A stretch of 64,000 nt of DNA from Phragmites australis. Taxonomy: Eukaryota; Streptophyta; Magnoliopsida; Poales; Poaceae. The notes below the pieces were generated by a model that saw only the letters and a program-made list of their open reading frames with translations, was not told the DNA's origin and did no database searches. This document shows positions 10,422-24,545 of this stretch, piece after piece. The number at the start of each line of letters is the position of its first letter. Positions within the stretch are counted from its first letter, which is position 1. The stretch covers positions 16,709,501 to 16,773,500 of the forward strand of contig NC_084928.1 of assembly GCF_958298935.1 (NCBI RefSeq). The letters run 5' to 3'. A program made the translations under genes and the position numbers.

Positions 10422-10972
10422 TGTAACACCCTAATTTTTCCATCTTTAAAAATTCTCAAAATTTGCTAAAGTTTAAAATGAGTTTAAATAATTTAAAAGA
10501 GAGAAAAATCCTATTTCATATGAAAGAATGTATAATTGACATAGGATATAAATGATTATTTTGCATTCATGCTGAATTAGGCAAATAGGATTTTTATTTG
10601 GTTTTTGATGAAATTTATTTGAAGAGTTTTTGCTTTGATTTTGAATTTGAAGTTAGTTTTGAATTTAGAAAGAAAAGAAAACGATTAAAATCTTTCGCGG
10701 CCTACTTTTCTTTTTTCCCAGCCCGGCTTTTCTTTGGCCTCAGCCCAGGAGCCACTTCGGCTTTCTCTCCACCTGGGCCGCACCCCTGCCTCGGCCCACT
10801 CGCGCGCGCCAGCCAGCACACCGAAGATGCCCCCGCCATCGCCGCCTTAACCTACGCCACCGCCATGTGGGACCCGCCGGTCAGATCTATCGTCTCCGTC
10901 GCGCCGCCGAATCCAAGCAAGAAACCGACGCCACCTTGGAGTCCTGCAGCGCCCCGCGACCCTCCGAGCCGC

Positions 10973-10981
10973 CTATATATG
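10973..10981 (+). promoter_or_regulatory. Probable TATA box of T 5' LTR
   Basis: CTATATATG is followed by a pyrimidine-rich GC-rich leader. The 3' LTR has CATATATATG at 18688-18697. Consensus-like 5' splice sites lie downstream (G|GTAAGT near 11277), so the leader may be spliced. Confidence 0.5.
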
Positions 10982-12019
10982 TGCCCGCCCCCTCCCCGAA
11001 CTCATCTCATCCGAAAATCGGAGACTCGAGCCCTAGTTGTCGAGATCGAAGCTTGCCGAGCCGCAATTGCCGCCGCTTCAACCGAGATCGCCGACGCGCT
11101 ATTCCAGAGCAAAACAGAGCAGCCCGAGCCCACCATCGCACGCGTCTGCCCCTGCTGACGCTTTCCCCGCTGTCGCCTTGGTCCCTGCGCCACCAGAGAG
11201 CCCTTCCCGACGAGATCCCGAGGACCTCCGCCGCCCCTTCCGTCGCCACCCGCCTTTCCGTGCCGTGCCGCTTTCGGTAAGTCTCAAAACGGATACCCCG
11301 TGCTCCCCTGAACCTTTTCCGCTGCTCGTCGTCGAGGATTGAAGCCGACGACGACCTTTTTCTCCCTGCTCCGGTGAGTCGCCACCGTGCCGAGCTCGGC
11401 TCCACCGAGAACCACTCCGCCGACCGTCCCCTTTGAGCTCAGCTGTCAGATCCAAAACCCACGGCCCAGATTAGATCCCATCTATACCCCTTCGCTGACC
11501 AACCCGAGGCTGCCACGTGTTGCCACTTAACCCAGTCAGCCGCCACCTAGCCCCCTCTACTGATGTATCACCCCTGTCACCATGCCACGTCAGCCAAAGC
11601 AGCCCAGTCAGTATTTCAAGCCTTTTTTAGTATAAATATAAATATGATAATTCCTTTAATTGGTAATTTTGCAATTTAGCCCATGGACTTTTCTGAAATA
11701 ACAAAAAGAGCCCTATCTTTTTGCAGTTAGGTCCCTATACTTTTTCATAATTACATTTAGGTCCTTCTATTTTTACAAAAGGTCCCCGAACTTTCTATTT
11801 AATTCAAAATAAGTCCTTTTCTTTTTCCAGATTTAACCCTAGACTTATTTTAGCCCTAACTTTTTCATTGTAGCTCCAATTTAAACGATTCTTGCGCCGA
11901 TGGATTCGTTTTTCAGTGCTCTTTCTTGTTAAACAGTTTTTATCTCGTTGTTCTTTTGTTTTGTGCTCTGTTTTTAGTGTATCTTGTTTGTTTGTTTGCC
12001 GGTTATTGTGCGATTAGCC

Positions 12020-12473
12020 GACAACATCCTGGATCAATTTGAGGAACATCAAGACCAAGAGCAAGAGTACATTGAGCAGCAGCAAGGAGAAGGCAAGTGT
12101 CCTTGATCATATTGAACCTATGTTTTTAAATGCTTTGTTTTACAAAAATTGCATGCAATATCGATCAATATGATGGGTAGTACTAGATGGTTGTGGTATG
12201 CAGGGTGGGGAACCTTGTATGCTAGTTGATGGATTGTTTGGGTTACACTCATTTAACACTTGTTTCAAGCTTTTGAGTCCAAATGTGTTTTCATTACTCG
12301 CATTTACGCAAATATTACCATGTGTCAGCCTATTCTTGATATAAGCCTGCATGTCATTATTTTCCCACACTTGCTGAGTACTTTATGTGCTCACCCTTGC
12401 TTTCTGCTACAAAAATATATGCTGCTCAGTGGAAGACTTTGAGGATTTCCAAGACGACGACGTAGTGTTCTAA
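12020..12473 (+). other. LTR-internal acidic ORF split by a predicted intron (5' LTR copy)
   Basis: Exon a (12020-12092) encodes DNILDQFEEHQDQEQEYIEQ and a QQGE tail, ending AG|GCAAGT, the consensus of GC-AG introns. Exon b (12430-12473) follows a ...CTGCTCAG acceptor and encodes EDFEDFQDDDVVF before a stop. Joining the exons keeps the frame. The 3' LTR (19737-20906) and the diverged LTR S (32183-33435) have the same layout. The function is unknown and the start exon was not found. Confidence 0.45.
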
Positions 12474-12726
12474 GGAGCGTGTCTTCCAGTCGGTGCCTGT
12501 GGAGTTTTGGTCGTCAATGTTTTCGTCTCGCTGCCGTCGTTTAGATGCTGTCGTTTAGGTTAATTTTGAGGTTGCTCAAGTGAAGTCTTTTATTTGTAAG
12601 TGAACGTTTATTTAAATAAAGTATTGCTTTTGCTACTTCACCTATGATGTCCTTATGTGTGTTAAATTTTCTGGGCACACATGAGCCGCACTTGATTTTG
12701 TCCGTTAAAATCGGGTGTGACAGATG

Positions 12727-12740
12727 TGGTATCAGAGCCA
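12727..12740 (+). other. Primer binding site of T (tRNA-Met)
   Basis: TGGTATCAGAGCCA begins five bases after the LTR end and is complementary to the 3' end of plant initiator tRNA-Met, the usual primer for this lineage. Confidence 0.85.
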
Positions 12741-12889
12741 TACTGACTGTAGGATCGCAAGCCTAGCTAGAATGGTCGTCCTAAGGAATTACCTAGTCGT
12801 CTAAACCCATCCAAGCCTTTCCATAGTTCTCAAACTTGTCTCTTGCTATCCATAAGACTATTTCTTATATCCCATCTCTTCCTTTTTAG

Positions 12890-13699
12890 ATGGTTCGCTA
12901 GCTACTTACTGCCCGCAAGTCAACCGGAGGACGTCCACCCATTCTACAACGTGTACCAACTGAAGAGGAGATTGATGACCCCACCTTTCAGAGTATGGAT
13001 CTCGTTCCTGATGTTTATGAAAGTGATGGCCTTCATGCTGGACACCTTCCGCGCCTCCTTTGGGGAATACTTTCTGGACTTGGACATACTCAGAAGCCAG
13101 TCTACAGGGGAGTGAAGAAACAATACTCTGGATATGTGGAATGGAAGGTTGAAGTCACTATTTTTGATTATGAGCGAAGTCAAGATGAGGGTTTGGAAGT
13201 TCGAAGAGTGGTGGGCATTCACTCAGCAATGGTCCCAAGAGCAACCTTCACCGCTGGTGTTCGAGATGCAGCTCGTCAAGCCATATCCCGTGTTCGTGAT
13301 CAATACAACAGCAAGATGGACAACTCTCCTTATGCATACTGTCCCCGCAGAACTCGTGGGAGTAATGAATCGTTCGTAAAGAGCTCCTTTGGAGAAAACC
13401 CCAAGCTACGAGAGCAAGTTGCCCTTACTATGGCCTTGGAGGACAAGCTCAACTGTGCTTTATGGCTCAACTGTGCTTTATGGGAATTGGGAGAAGTTCG
13501 TCAGCACCTTGCCTTCGTCTCCGCTTCTCTTGAGGATGAACAAGACGCCAACCAAGAAGGATCTGAAGATGATGAAGAAGACTTGTCTATCCACTCGCCC
13601 CCACGCAAGAGGATCTGCTTCAACACCCCCGCCACCTTTGAGGATGGATCAGTTGATTCCTCCCCCTCAGGGTCTCGCACTAGAGAGGAGTCCCAATAG
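12890..13699 (+). pseudogene. Extra ORF before gag in T, with a histone H3 tail-like N-terminus
   Basis: A frame of 269 codons plus stop is broken only by TAG at codon 4 (12899-12901). After M-V-R-stop-L-L it reads TARKSTGGRPP. Counting from Met, TARKSTGG occupies exactly residues 6-13 of histone H3, so the lysine sits at the H3K9 position; Arg2, Pro16 and Gln19 also match. The rest is not histone: it has YRGVKKQYSGYVEWKVEV near residue 85, a 15-bp direct duplication (LNCALW twice, near 13448-13480) and an acidic C-terminus (EDDEEDLSIHSPPRKR). It lies between the primer site and gag. I recognise no family. Mimicry of the H3 tail is my inference. Confidence 0.7.
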
Positions 13700-13971
13700 T
13701 GTGGTCTTTCCATAGATAGTCTTATCCTTGTTAAAACCTAGCGTCGATGTAATCGTTAAGGGTAATAATAATGTTAGTGTGAGCTTTGTTATGGTGCTAA
13801 GTGTGCAAGTTGGAGTTTTTGTTTGAGTGCTGATGTGAGTTGTGGAATGCTTTGGCACCTTGTCCACATATGCATCTTTATTTCTATATAATATAATATA
13901 GATGGGTTTCTTTAGTTAAACTATTCCATACTTGCTTATCTACTTCTGTTCCCTTCTTCAACCCTAACCAG

Positions 13972-15155
13972 ATGGTTAACACAAGGAGGAGCATTAACAC
14001 TCAAGAGGAGAACAACAACAACCAGGATCCACCCCCGTCCCCTCCATCAACCTTGGAGCAACAGATGGCTATGCAGACTCAAATCTTGCAAGCTTTAGCT
14101 CAAACTATGGTGCATATGCAACAACAACAGCCAAACCATGTTCCTCAACCGCATCAACCATCAAGACTTGGAGAATTCAAATGAACTCAACCCCCAGTCT
14201 TCAATCATGGAGTGGAACCAATGGATGCAAATGATTGCTGAAGGATATAGAGAGGAAGCTACATGTTGCTCAGTGCAACGATAGGGAGATGGTTCTCTAC
14301 GCCTCGCATCAACTCACTGGTCAAGCCCTAGATTGGTGGGAAGCATACTGCGCTGCACATGAAAATCTTGCATCTATCACATGGATGGAGTTTAAATCTA
14401 GTTTCCACACCCATCACCTGTCATCTAGAGATGTTCGTCTGAAGAAGAAGGAGTTCATGAACTTGAAGCAAGGACCAATGATTGTGAGGGAGTACCTAAC
14501 CAAGTTTACTCAACTGTCCAGATATGCACCCAATGAAGTGGACATAGAGGAGAAGAAACAGAAACGTTTTCTGGAAGGCCTGAATGACGCCATAGAATAT
14601 GCTTTGCTTCCCCAAAAGTTTCCCCATTTCCCAGCATTGGTAAACAAAGCCCTAATGGTTGAGCACAAGCGTCGCCAGCTGGAGGAGAAGAAGAGGAAGA
14701 TGTCATTCCAGGGACAAGGAAGCAACACACGATCCCGTGGAGCAACACAGATGTCTCCGCAAGGCCCTATGTTTCGTTCCAACATTCAGTACTGGACTTA
14801 GTCGCAAACCCCCGTTCAGCGCTCCAACTATCAGACACCCCCGATCAACCCCACCAACTACTCCTCAAACCAAGAACAGTCCAGCAACTCCAGGCCCAAA
14901 CAAAGGATGTTTCTATTGTGGAGAGGAAGGGAACTATGTGAATAAATGCCCTAAAAAAATGCAGGATTTGGCCAGAACCAACAACACACCAAGGACAACT
15001 CCAGTTCCAGCCCAATCACGCAATGGAAGCCAGAACCCTAGTCAGAACAATCGTGGACAACAGAACTATATTCATGAGAAAGTCAACCATGTCACAGCAG
15101 AAGAGGCTATTGATGCTCAAGATGTGGTGTACGGTATGTTCCTCGTTAACTCCTG
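13972..15155 (+). pseudogene. Gag of T
   Basis: ATG at 13972 opens MVNTRRSINTQEENN. The capsid region has HQLTGQALDWWEAY, MEFKSSFHTHH and REYLTKFTQLSRYAP, standard chromovirus gag motifs. Defects are a TGA at 14182, a one-base loss near 14234 and a second frameshift near 14800-14850. The zinc knuckle near 14910-14950 reads CFYCGEEGNYVNKC: the expected His of CX2CX4HX4C is Asn. The frame ends at 15153-15155. Confidence 0.85.
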
Positions 15156-15159
15156 ACCT

Positions 15160-15904
15160 GCATCTGTTTTGTTTGATTCTGGAGCTTCGCATTCTTTTAT
15201 CACCATTCAGTATGTTACAAAACATGGATTGCCTATGGTTATGATGAAGAATAATATGTTTATTAGCTCGCCTGGAGGGAATTTGAAGGCAAAATATATG
15301 TCTTAGGATGAGGCTTAGCATAAGGGGGGTAGAATTCCCCGCGAATCTTATAGTCTTGGAAACCAATGGCATAGATGTGATCCTTGGAATGGATTGGTTA
15401 GCCAAGTTCAACGGAATTATAGAATGTGCCAGAAGGGCAGTTCACCTAACCAATGGAGAAGGTACCAAGGTTGAGTTCGAAGCCACTGTACCAGCAGCAG
15501 AGGATCGGTCTCTCAATTCGCTTGAAGGAACAACCATTGATCAGATCAAGATAGTTTGTGAGTTTCCTGATTTCTTCCCCAACGAATTGCCACGTATGCC
15601 ACCTGATCGAGAAGTCGAGTTTGTCATTGAGTTGGTACCTGGTACGGCCCCTATAGCAAAAAGGCCATATAGGATGTCGGCTAACGACCTAATCGAGTTA
15701 AAGAAGCAAATTCAAGAGCAGTTAAGCAAAGGTTTTATTAGACCAAGTGCATCACCCTGGGGAGCCCCAGTTCTTTTCGTGGATAAGAAGTATGGTAGCC
15801 GAAGGATGTGTGTAGATTACAGAGCACTTAATGAGGTAACCATTAAGAACAAGTACCCGTTGCCTCGAATTGAGGATTTGTTTGATCAGATGAGAGGAGC
15901 CTAA
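15160..15904 (+). pseudogene. Pol of T, protease and N-terminal reverse transcriptase
   Basis: The protease active site LFDSGASHSFIT is near 15167-15203 and the flap-side motif DVILGMDWL near 15375-15400; a frameshift or stop near 15304 separates them. RT begins near 15560 with [18 protein letters not shown] and continues to [25 protein letters not shown] at 15902-15904 interrupts the frame in the GA-stop-VFSKIDL block, which otherwise runs on in the same frame. Confidence 0.85.
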
Positions 15905-16675
15905 GTGTTCTCCAAGATTGATCTAAGATCAGGATACTATCAGCTGAAGATCCGACTGTCAGATGTACCAAAGACTGCTTTCAGTACCCGATATGGGCTA
16001 TACGAGTATACTGTTATGTCATTCGGATTAACCAATGCCCCAGCCTACTTCATGAATCTCATGAACAAGGTATTCATGGATTATTTGGACAAGTTTGTAG
16101 TGGTGTTCATTGATGATATTCTAATTTTCTCTAGAAGCAAAGAAGAACATGAAGGACGTTTGAGAATTATGCTACAGACACTCAGAGAACATCAGCTGTA
16201 TGCCAAGCTTAGCAAGTGTGATTTTTGGTTAGATCAAGTCGCGTTTCTTGGCCATATCTTAACCGCTGGAGGTGTAGTGGTAGATCCCAGTAAAGTAAAT
16301 GATGTATTGAATTGGTTACCACCGACCAACGTGACAGAAATCAGGAGTTTTCTTGGATTAGCAGGGTACTATCGCTGCTTTATAGAAGGGTTCTCTAGGA
16401 TAGCCCGACCTCTTACCTCTTCGCTTCAGAAAAATGTGGTATTTAAATGGAGTCCTGCTTGTCAGGCAAGTTTTGAAGAATTGAATAAGAGATTGACTAT
16501 GGCCCCAGTACTAGTTTTACCTGATATTAGCATGAATTTCGACATCTACTGTGATGCTTCGCGACAAGGACTTGGATGTGTTCTTGTGCAAGAAGGTCGA
16601 GTCGTGGCCTATGCGTCAAGACAATTAAGGAAGCATGAAGAGCACTACCCTACACATGATTTACCATGGAAATAG
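15905..16675 (+). pseudogene. Pol of T, reverse transcriptase core and truncated RNase H
   Basis: The frame carries [13 protein letters not shown], the catalytic box [11 protein letters not shown] (about 16100-16130), [10 protein letters not shown] and [14 protein letters not shown]. RNase H starts at [17 protein letters not shown] (about 16540) and stops after [17 protein letters not shown]. The following RNase H segment, normally about 100 residues, is missing, and the sequence jumps to the linker before integrase near 16665. Confidence 0.85.
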
Positions 16676-17590
16676 ATTGTACCCTTGAACAAGAAATTCG
16701 GAAAAGTCAACTGGAAGACGAGAAGCTCAAAGAAATTAGATAGCTTATTAAGGAGGATAGAGCTCCAGGTTTCACGGAGGACAGTCAACGTACAATATGG
16801 TTCAAAAAAAGAGTTTGCGTACCCAACCGGGAGGATATTAAAAAGATGATTCTCAGAGAAGCTCATGAATCAACATATTCCATTCACCCTGGGAGTACCA
16901 AGATGTATCATGATCTTAAGGATCGTTATTGGTGGTATGGAATGAAAAGAGAAGTTGCAGAATACGTAGCTCTGTGTGATACTTGTCAGAAAGTCAAAGC
17001 AGAACATCAGAGACCAGCAGGTTTACTGCAACCCTTGAAGATACCTGAATGGAAATGGGAAGAGATCGGTATGGATTTCATTGTTGGTTTGCTCCGTACC
17101 CAGAATGGCTATGATTCTATTTGGGTGGTAATTGATCGTTTGACAAAGGTCGCCCATTTTATTCCAGTAAAGACTACATATAGTGGAGCTAAACTAGCAG
17201 AGTTGTATATGTCAAGAATAGTATGTCTGCATGGAGTACCAAAGAAGATCGTTTCGGATAGAGGAACTCAGTTTACCTCCAAGTTTTGGCAGAAGCTACA
17301 TGAGTCTATGGACACAAAGTTGAATTTTAGTTCTGCCTATCATCCTCAAACAGATGGTCAGACAGAAAGGGTAAACCAGATATTGGAAGATATGCTGAGA
17401 GTGTGTGCTCTGAAGTATGGAAAGAGTTGGGACAAAAATCTGCCTTATGCCGAGTTCTCGTATAGCAACAGTTATGAGACAAGCCTCCAAATGTCTCCGT
17501 TTGAAGCATTGTATGGAAGGAAATGTAGAACACTGTTGTTCTGGAATGAGACGGGAGAGTCAGGTTTTTGGCCCAGAGGTTCTACGAGAT
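16676..17590 (+). pseudogene. Pol of T, integrase
   Basis: The zinc-binding part has HPGSTKMYHDLK and CDTCQKVK (about 16880-17000). The catalytic core shows Asp in GMDFIVGLL (about 17070), Asp in VSDRGTQFTS (about 17255) and Glu in GQTERVNQILED (about 17360), so the DDE triad is present. A TAG near 16740 lies before the domain and a single-base frameshift near 17555-17565 ends this frame. Confidence 0.88.
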
Positions 17591-18106
17591 GTAGAAAAGC
17601 AAGTCCAGATGATTCGAGAAAATCTGAGGATTGCACAATCCAGACAGAAAAGTTATGCTGATAATAGGCGAAGAGAATTGATTTTTGAAATTGGAGATTT
17701 CGTCTACCTTAAGGTTTCACCTATAAGGGGTCTTCATAGATTTAAGGTTAAAGGAAAGTTATCACCAAGATTCATTGGACCCTTCAAGATATTGGATAAG
17801 AGGGGAGAGGTAGCTTATCAGTTGGAATTACCGCCTCAGCTATCAGATGTTTCCCAGTTGAAAAAGTGTCTTCGAGTACCGGAAGAACAATTACACATGG
17901 AGGAACTAGATGTTCAAGAAGATCTCTCCTATATAGAGTATCCTGAGAAGATTCTTGAGAGATCAGAAAGAGTAACCAGAACCAAGGTAATACCAATTTG
18001 CAAAGTGCAATGGAGCCACCACTCAGAAGATGAAGCAACTTCGGAAAGGGAAGAAGATCTGAAAGCGGAGTTTCCTCATCTCTTCTCTGCTCCAGGTGAA
18101 TCTTGA
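17591..18106 (+). pseudogene. Pol of T, integrase C-terminus and chromodomain
   Basis: After the frameshift the protein continues with GDFVYLKVSPIRGLHRFKVK and SPRFIGPFKIL (GPF/Y module). The last 60 or so residues (about 17926-18085) read YIEYPEKILERS, CKVQWSHHSEDEATSE and EEDLKAEFPHLF, the chromodomain of plant chromoviruses. The usual Trp of EATWE is Ser here. Chromodomains of this class are thought to steer integration to heterochromatin. Stop TGA is at 18104-18106. Confidence 0.88.
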
Positions 18107-21314: not shown

Positions 21315-21545
21315 GTCGGGGACACACCGTCGCCAGGCTCCGGACGGGATATCTCTACAGCCGGGCAGCAGCTAAGGGCCGAGGTGGTCAAGGACACCCT
21401 TTCTTGACTAGCCTTTGACTACACCTCCAACATGCCATCGCTAGGCTCCAGACAGATTACCTTCGGGGCAGGGCAACGGCTAAAGGCTGCAGGGGTCAAG
21501 CACCACCTCTCCCAGCCTAGCCCCAGGCTTCGAGGCTACCAAGCC
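21315..21545. repeat. 108-bp array, left part (about two units)
   Basis: Units containing 'gggcagcagctaagggccgaggtggtca' and 'cgccaggctccggacgg' match the larger array at 23823-24545. The block between the two parts has unrelated tandem repeats and seems to split one array. Confidence 0.6.
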
Positions 21546-23470: not shown

Positions 23471-23822
23471 CTTCGAGAACTCCGCCGAGCGAAATGGTTC
23501 TGAAAAGACCTAACAGGAAAGGTACCCTAACATCTTGAAGGCTAATGCCTCTGTGTCGTAGTGGTACAAAACCCACTGGTCTCCAAAGAGCACCGCACGC
23601 AGATCAAAGAGTATAAAGATCCCCTCCCTATAGGGGACGGTATGATCATGTGACTCAAACATGTATGGTAAAAGGTAACAACATTACCCTACCATCTCCT
23701 TTGAGAACATCTTTTACATGTTATTTTATGAGGGTCACACTAACATTTAATAAAAGCCCACACCTCGTGGCACGGGAAACATAGTGGAACCCCCAACTAT
23801 CCATTACAGAGACCGCAAAGTC
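23471..23822. other. Spacer between arrays in N
   Basis: No repeat or coding motif is clear. A TATA-like 'gagtataaagatcccc' (about 23609) and an 'aataaaagccc' (about 23750) are present without supporting context. Confidence 0.2.
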
Positions 23823-24545
23823 GGGCAGCGGCTAAGGGCCGAGGGGGTTACAGACCGCCACTCCCGCCTGGCCTTCAGCTTCGCCTCCAACGCGTCGTCG
23901 CCAGGATCTGAACGGAATACCTCTGGAGCCGAGCAGCAGCTAAGGGCCGAGGGGGTCACGGACCGCCTCTAACACCTGGCCTTCGGCTTCGCTTCCGACG
24001 TGTCATCTCCAGGCTCTGGACAGAATACCTCCGGAGTCGGGCAGCGGCTAAGGGCCGAGGGGTTCACGGACTGCCTCTCCCGCATAACCTTCGGCTTCGC
24101 CTCCAACACGCCATCGCCAGGCTCCGAACGGAATACCTCTGGAGCCGGGCAACGACTAAGGGCTGAGGGGGCTGCGAACCGCCTCTTCCGCCTAACCTTC
24201 GACTTCACCTCTGACACGCCATCACCAGGGTCTGGACGGAATACTTCCGGAGCTGGGCAGTGGCTAAGGGCTAAACCGCCTCTCCTGCCTGGCCTTCAGC
24301 TTCGCCTCCGATGCGCCATCGCCAGGCTTCAAACGGAATACCTCCAAATCCGGGCAGCGGCTAAAGGCTGAAGGGGTCACGGACCGCCTCTCTCACCTAA
24401 CCTTCGGCTTCGCCTCAGAAGCACCGTCACTAGGCTCCAGACGGAATACCTCCAGAGCTGGGCAACGGCTAACGAACAGGGAGGGTCGCGGACCACCTCT
24501 CTTGCCTAGCCTTCGGCTGCGCCTTCGACACATCATCGCTGTCAA
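23823..24545. repeat. 108-bp tandem array in N, seven units
   Basis: Unit starts (GGGCARCGGCTAAGGG) lie at 23823, 23931, 24039, 24147, 24255, 24352 and 24461: spacing 108, 108, 108, 108, 97 and 109. A 108-bp period is 36 codons, and both strands keep a mostly open frame. The minus strand reads a repeated SALSRCPTPEVFRSEPGD and EAKPKARRE pattern; the plus strand reads SERNTSGAGQRLRAEG. The minus reading agrees with the orientation of the antisense ORF at 25078-25386. Confidence 0.8.

Follow-up and report, generated by a model that had tools for sequence, protein, structure and literature searches.

An extra open reading frame (ORF) ahead of gag in a Ty3/gypsy retrotransposon of Phragmites australis opens with a stretch closely resembling the N-terminal tail of histone H3, and comparison with its relatives leads us to regard this tail, with a probability of roughly 0.95 as judged from sequence, as a conserved H3 mimic. 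The element lies in the window, the whole stretch of 64,000 nucleotides analysed here (C8:16709501-16773500), and comprises long terminal repeats (LTRs), a primer site, the extra pre-gag ORF (ORF0), gag and the remains of pol with a C-terminal chromodomain; ORF0 stands upstream of gag-pol as it does in Retrosat2/RIRE relatives. Comparison of the predicted ORF0 proteins showed a tail that begins with the initiator Met and is common to families separated by deep divergence; its conservation far exceeds that of most of the protein and is strongest at R2, T6, R8 and K9. The features of ORF0 in the window are as follows.

12869..12889, + strand: pyrimidine-rich stretch that ends in TAG abutting the ORF0 ATG and resembles a splice acceptor
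12890..12949, + strand: H3-like N-terminal tail, M-V-R-stop-L-L-TARKSTGG-RPPILQ, with the lysine codon 12917-12919 at the H3K9 position
12890..13699, + strand: ORF0 (pre-gag), 270 codons including the final stop, with an internal stop at codon 4 here
13049..13300, + strand: stretch aligning to a double-stranded RNA-binding domain (dsRBD)-like domain (about residues 54-137), from alignment and models of the relatives P0141 and P0148
13595..13612, + strand: SPPRKR motif, seen in the sequence and retained in many relatives

The frame from the ATG at 12890 reads MVR-stop-LLTARKSTGGRPPILQRVPTEEE... (in a longer reading, MVR-stop-LLTARKSTGGRPPILQ...), and its stop ends at 13699. Once Met is removed, the residues in common with H3 are R2, T6-G13 and P16, while residues 1, 4, 5, 14 and 15 differ and codon 4 (H3 residue 3) is a stop; ten of the first 14 residues match, Met counted. 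This frame confirms the initial annotation, which had placed TARKSTGG in the H3 register with Arg2 and Pro16 matching. The pattern M[AV]R-xxx-TARK occurred once in the window versus not at all in 100 dinucleotide-preserving shuffles. None of the ARKS- and ARR/ARK-type strings elsewhere in the window lay near another ORF0, and tblastn of 14 ORF0 proteins against the window gave matches at 12890-13696 only. Sister ORF0 families, such as those beginning MARVKQTARKTTGG and MARTKNTARKSTGG, match H3 better than the window's own family does and are better examples of the mimic.

Copies of the window's family (family A; the letters A-D are labels of this analysis) were collected by a whole-genome DNA search that gave 342 candidates, of which 40, all 93-100% identical to window 12880-13200, were scored. 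Their starts were placed by ungapped match, so that copies with indels may be misplaced (worst case, 25 of 58 countable bases). R2 was present in 33 copies, T6 in 34, A7 in 37, R8 in 36 and K9 in 38, and the whole TARKSTGG in 26. The match had been open to refutation by other copies lacking the ARKS motif or starting elsewhere; the ATG was found in 38 of the 40 and the whole TARK in 30, so that the match withstands this check. Codon 4 is a stop in five copies and a sense codon in 35, a minority state in keeping with the earlier presumption that the stop is a later mutation.

The tail reaches well beyond family A. Three protein searches returned 19, 412 (of which 120 were listed) and 27 proteins. 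Hardly any of these has a functional name, and their starts include MARTKNTARKSTGGYVPPR (P0141), MARVKQTARKTTGG (P0140), MVRTRQTARKSTCGYLPPR (P0146), MARNKLTARKSCSG (P0020), MARTKLTARKCNDG (P0006), MARTRLTARKQVGG (P0139) and MARTKLTPRKSTCR (P0148, Urochloa humidicola), as well as MARTKQTARKRACGYLPGR (P0154), which is exact for H3 residues 1-10. The same genome holds, beside family A, families B (MARTRKTARKSTNGRLPARP), C (MARTRLTARKQVGG) and D (MARVKQTARKTTGG). The H3K9-type ARK[S/T] motif appears as TARKS in families A and B and as TARKT in D; residue 10 departs from it in family C (TARKQ) and several others. Among 50 starts, 42 were recognisable (at least 7 of 14 H3 matches), a criterion that biases the residue counts of those 42 towards H3, and 24 of the 42 had the whole TARK; weaker members match H3 at only 5 of 13 residues. 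The core is missing from two clades, one P0004-like and the other a large P0019-like clade (MVRTLQTTRVNTN). P0019 and its relatives have a drifted tail, MVRTLQTTRVNTNYAPPPRQ, that keeps R2, T3, Q5, T6 and R8 and has lost K9, which raises the question of a replacement of the mimic there. A search of viral contigs with A1 gave nothing useful.

Two further observations concern these families. Locus L127 of the same genome (C6:22427200-22428700) has an ORF0-type start, MARTKQTARKVTGGYV, exact for H3 residues 1-10, and codon-based screening would take its ORF0 for a host H3 gene. Three family C copies of ORF0 at C10:34239278, 34247930 and 34256573 share one orientation and a spacing of about 8.65 kb, which points to LTR retrotransposons arrayed in tandem; ORF0 is open in other family C copies, which are almost identical.

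Conservation between distant relatives carries most of the argument. Two deep groups (7 and 8 proteins with tail) share 70% identity over residues 2-10, 27% over residues 11-20 and 22% over the 214 remaining columns, figures drawn from the 15 rows in which the tail is largely intact, with four tail-less rows and four fragments left out and with residues 13 onward of P0116 and P0011 aligned with one gap. R2, T6 and K9 are identical between the groups in 100% of comparisons, R8 and P16 in 88%, R18 in 75% and A7 in 43%, and the only windows that match or exceed the tail in conservation are those over the DAARQA block. Agreement with H3 beyond residue 10 is looser, consisting of P16 and a basic residue at 18. 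In a tree built without the tail, which has several long branches and unsure joins, TARK occurs to either side of the deepest split as drawn at the midpoint, with four label changes against 8.8 in shuffles.

Codon comparisons point the same way within their limits. In one hand-picked intact copy each of families A-D, the proportions of non-synonymous (pN) and synonymous (pS) differences were 0.27 and 0.63 over codons 2-10 and 0.45 and 0.78 over the rest, an equally low pN being seen in 16 of 192 other nine-codon windows. Codons 2-20 differ between D and D2 at five synonymous and two non-synonymous positions (18 and 19 in the rest), and between C and C2 at one of each. Counts are small and distances across A-D near saturation, so the deep-group comparison weighs more. 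Conservation at the RNA level alone was rejected because synonymous codons vary; the A7 codon, for instance, is GCC, GCT, GCG or GCA among the pattern matches listed.

Genome-wide, M[AV]R-xxx-TARK occurs 142 + 153 = 295 times, host H3 genes included, versus 1 + 0 times for the reversed pattern, the only genome-wide control. H3's own T-K-Q codons were present at 14 of 100 pattern sites listed, at least one of these (L127) being an ORF0. Among the first 30 pattern loci, 26 were ORF0-like, three were host H3 and one (L070) looked like chance; of the ORF0-like loci, 25 had AG abutting the ATG and 25 a primer site 163-194 nt upstream, as also found in families A-D. A chance match confined to one decayed copy was rejected by the pattern count together with the scoring of the 40 copies. 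A profile of 23 hand-picked ORF0 proteins, searched against all PDB sequences, gave 154 matches at E up to 10; the best 60 were all H3, H3 variants or chimeras (one labelled Cse4; best E 0.009), and began at profile position 1 in 59 cases and position 2 in one. The modest E-values arise because some 20 of 260 positions can match. Since the P0019-like clade, with its drifted tail and the bulk of the 120 proteins listed of 412, was left out, the profile result speaks for the remaining ORF0 proteins.

Structural models suggest that ORF0 has three parts, namely a flexible H3-like tail (residues 1-10), a dsRBD-like domain and a long helix with an acidic tail. In models of members of both deep groups (P0141 and P0148) the tail is disordered and the core dsRBD-like, with the predicted alpha-beta-beta-beta-alpha fold. 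Structure comparison gave plant DRB7.2 and HYL1 as its best rows, identity being 14-21% in plant DRB rows; compared with the plant DRB proteins (DRB7.2, HYL1 and DRB4), ORF0 differs by the added H3-like tail. A Pfam scan of eight ORF0 sequences found no dsRBD family at E up to 5, HMMER filters being apt to drop weak matches, and the viral structure library gave nothing at E 0.001 or better. The RNA-contact lysines of dsRBDs lie at the start of helix 2; they were not seen by eye in F.AGIRDAARQAL, a judgement made without residue-level structural alignment. An SPxRKR motif, of which the window's SPPRKR may be a nuclear-localisation-like instance, recurs in many members. Capture of a complete H3 gene was rejected, in agreement with the initial annotation, because the models show a dsRBD-like core and long helix with no histone fold after the tail, and the PDB matches to H3 do not extend beyond about the first 44 positions. 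At 13448-13483 of the window ORF0, an 18-base unit is duplicated in tandem and in frame, giving LNCALW twice; the 91% identical relative P0002 has a single copy.

The starts of ORF0 and gag share a splice-like AG. For locus comparison 20 loci were hand-picked from 144 rows. TAG precedes the ORF0 ATG in families A-D, often after a pyrimidine-rich stretch, and does so in 35 of the 40 scored family A copies; gag in families A-D starts with CAG abutting ATG (CAG-ATGGT...; window 13969-13974; L015, L090, L069, L079, L072 and L063). AG also abuts the ATG in three host H3-like genes (L084, L124 and L126), an arrangement that looks like an intron running up to the start codon, and L084 has further introns within its coding part. 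Of six other H3-type starts, L127 (ORF0) has TAG, L128 has GAG and the four that are host-type lack the AG. The leader and LTR end yielded no 5' splice donor shared by families A-D. With an AG at both starts, ORF0 and gag-pol may be expressed from messages that are spliced separately, and the AG before the ATG of the three host genes leaves possible a capture of the 5' end alone of a host H3.3 gene. Neither the AG before the start codon nor the dsRBD-like body had figured in the interpretation of the initial annotation.

The remaining features of the element are listed below.

10422..12722, + strand: 5' LTR (TGTAACACCC...GGGTGTGACA), 91.7% (1775 columns) and 94.5% (550 columns) identical to the 3' LTR
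12727..12739, + strand: primer binding site TGGTATCAGAGCC, from sequence, which we take to be of the initiator tRNA-Met type
13969..13974, + strand: CAG-ATG at the gag start, from sequence
14235..18106, + strand: gag-pol remains (gag, protease, reverse transcriptase, RNase H, integrase, SH3), several frames broken
17945..18082, + strand: chromodomain, apparently of group II, with the Tekay-type motif RVTRTK, from a PF00385 match and the motif given in PMC3350952
18137..21158, + strand: 3' LTR, about 720 bases longer than the 5' LTR

The element is probably a Tekay/Retrosat2-type chromovirus, an assignment made from ORF0, LTR ends, primer site and one chromodomain motif rather than from a reverse transcriptase tree. 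Its LTR ends TGTAACACCC...GGGTGTGACA differ at one position per end from the TGTCACACCC...GGGCGTGACA given for Retrosat2/RIRE8 in PMC3485330. Of the two Tekay chromodomain motifs described in PMC3350952, (K/R)-X-(L/T)-R-X-(k/r) and EEXTWEXE, the first is present as RVTRTK and the second reads DEATSERE in the decayed window copy, two fixed positions off. The chromodomain that had been reported for this element is indeed present behind the SH3 domain, but its PF00385 match is weak (E 0.013; 15.9 bits against a gathering cut-off of 25.1) and it looks like group II. By eye, it keeps W45 of the cage that binds methylated H3K9 and appears to miss the other two cage residues, Y24 and Y48; group II chromodomains are described as lacking Y24 and usually Y48 (PMC3350952) and as acting by unknown means (PMC12786077). 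Further along the window, a short tandem array at 23788-24502 has a period of 108 bases, with units 62-82% alike in the comparisons listed and a related single copy at 21328.

Conservation of T6, R8 and K9 (and A7 in many members) together with R2, against variable T3, K4, Q5 and S10, favours partners that see Lys9 and a free N-terminus. The tail probably engages writers or readers of the H3K9 context. After removal of Met, it would be recognised by host enzymes or readers specific for the Lys9 region of H3, the candidates being SUVH-type methyltransferases and CMT3-, SHH1- or AGDP1-type readers, and as a decoy or alternative substrate it would weaken silencing of element chromatin; the DRB-like domain may bind element RNA or host DRB/DCL proteins and so deliver the decoy to the silencing machinery. 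To this whole account, of ORF0 as an element-encoded anti-silencing factor, we give slightly less than an even chance. Doubtful, though worth stating, is a two-headed protein in which the H3 tail, possibly with a splice acceptor from a host H3.3 gene, would occupy or be methylated by the H3K9me2/CHG machinery while the DRB-like domain would block or hijack the small-RNA arm.

Other uses of the tail have to be weighed against engagement of H3K9 partners. SNAG-type tails enter the H3 pocket of LSD1, and the ORF0 tail might similarly recruit or block a demethylase or a PHD-type or WD40-type H3 reader through its A1-R2 end; the deep groups do not differ at R2, members with the tail have a small residue 1 (A, V or P) and the register is fixed from Met, but T6, R8 and K9 are equally conserved while T3 and K4 vary, and we consider this distinctly unlikely. 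Also unlikely, if slightly less so, is a nuclear-import or chromatin-docking tag that would copy the importin- or chaperone-carried part of H3 and escort ORF0 to the nucleus together with RNA or cDNA of the element. Such a tag would be served by basic residues, which stand at 2, 8 and 9 and in many cases also at 4 and 18, and by the nuclear prediction given for ORF0-type proteins in PMC11728184; however, such a signal need not begin at residue 1, a plain basic signal has no need of the T6 invariant between deep groups, and many members already carry the SPxRKR-like motif at the opposite end. The tail, K9-methylated or not, might instead be held by the element's own chromodomain, linking ORF0 or its RNA to the integration complex. 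The same element encodes that chromodomain, and group I chromodomains read methylated H3K9 (PMC3350952), but the window's domain appears to be without two of the three cage residues, as group II is in general (PMC3350952, PMC12786077), and no partner is known, so that we hold this idea unlikely. Of the roles that the initial annotation had offered, with host proteins or with the element's integrase, the premise of an in-register tail on an element-encoded protein stands, whereas binding to its own integrase is weakened by the apparent lack of cage residues.

The resemblance might also be without H3-like function. In one version, ORF0 took its start from a host H3.3 gene, whose 5' end (the end of an intron plus the first codons) persists there as a relic, which would explain why AG abuts the ATG in L084, L124 and L126 and TAG stands at ORF0 starts in families A-D. 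A relic would erode, however, whereas the tail has been kept with changing codons and few residue changes between groups that share 22% identity elsewhere, and gag also starts with CAG-ATG, so that the AG may be unrelated to H3; as a full explanation this is very unlikely, although capture as an origin is compatible with function. Chance resemblance of a short basic start draws on the shortness of the motif and on the window copy's 10 of 14 matches counting Met, and is extremely improbable in view of the 295-to-1 pattern count, the PDB profile, the deep-group conservation and the match probabilities under family composition. For this copy chance is effectively refuted; a single chance origin in a common ancestor would be possible at about 1e-14 (12 of 13 matches) to about 4e-9 (9 of 13).

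Influenza A NS1 binds double-stranded RNA, its tail is C-terminal and its RNA-binding fold is different from that of ORF0. NS1 carries an H3-like tail (PMC12937675), which likens it to ORF0 as a protein of a parasite genome, with no relationship claimed. G9a/GLP are likewise non-histone proteins with an H3K9-like motif (the ARKS motif, PMC10611923), and automethylation of the H3-like motif of G9a allows it to bind HP1 (PMC9768651); there the motif is internal to a host enzyme, in contrast to the extreme N-terminus of an element protein. VANC of the Arabidopsis VANDAL elements is a plant element-encoded anti-silencing protein (PMC5735166), shown to counter silencing where ORF0 is only proposed to; compared by description, it differs in belonging to a Mutator-like DNA transposon, in sequence-specific DNA binding and in having no H3 tail in the abstract.

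ORF0 itself is already known. An extra ORF between LTR and gag has been described in Retrosat2, RIRE3, RIRE8 and FRetro3, with homologues in maize, sorghum and Brachypodium (PMC3485330), which share with the present ones long-LTR grass chromoviruses as carriers, fast evolution, a function not known and similar LTR ends. That report differs in inferring hydrolase-type functions from homology models; the word histone is absent from its main text. The 5' additional ORF of grass Tekay elements (PMC11728184) is also pre-gag, predicted nuclear and of weakly DRBM-like structure (maize Tekay and sorghum Sb7), its main text likewise containing no mention of histone. In the available text of PMC7264820 (additional ORFs) histone does not occur, nor do histone, ORF0 or mimic in that of PMC13317346 (gene capture). 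No report of a retrotransposon histone mimic was recognised in the open literature searched, which lay outside subscription journals, preprint servers and supplements.

Histone mimics have been described in host enzymes and some pathogens, and an element family with a conserved H3 tail would hold a direct handle on its own silencing pathway. The unexplained ORF0 of grass retrotransposons gains a testable role and may, as one short protein, link silencing through chromatin with silencing through small RNAs; in grasses, reagents or spectra for H3K9 tail peptides could detect proteins of the element as well. The two-headed reading, if true, would place ORF0 beside influenza NS1 as the version of that strategy used by plant mobile elements, and might account in part for the success of these elements in grass genomes.
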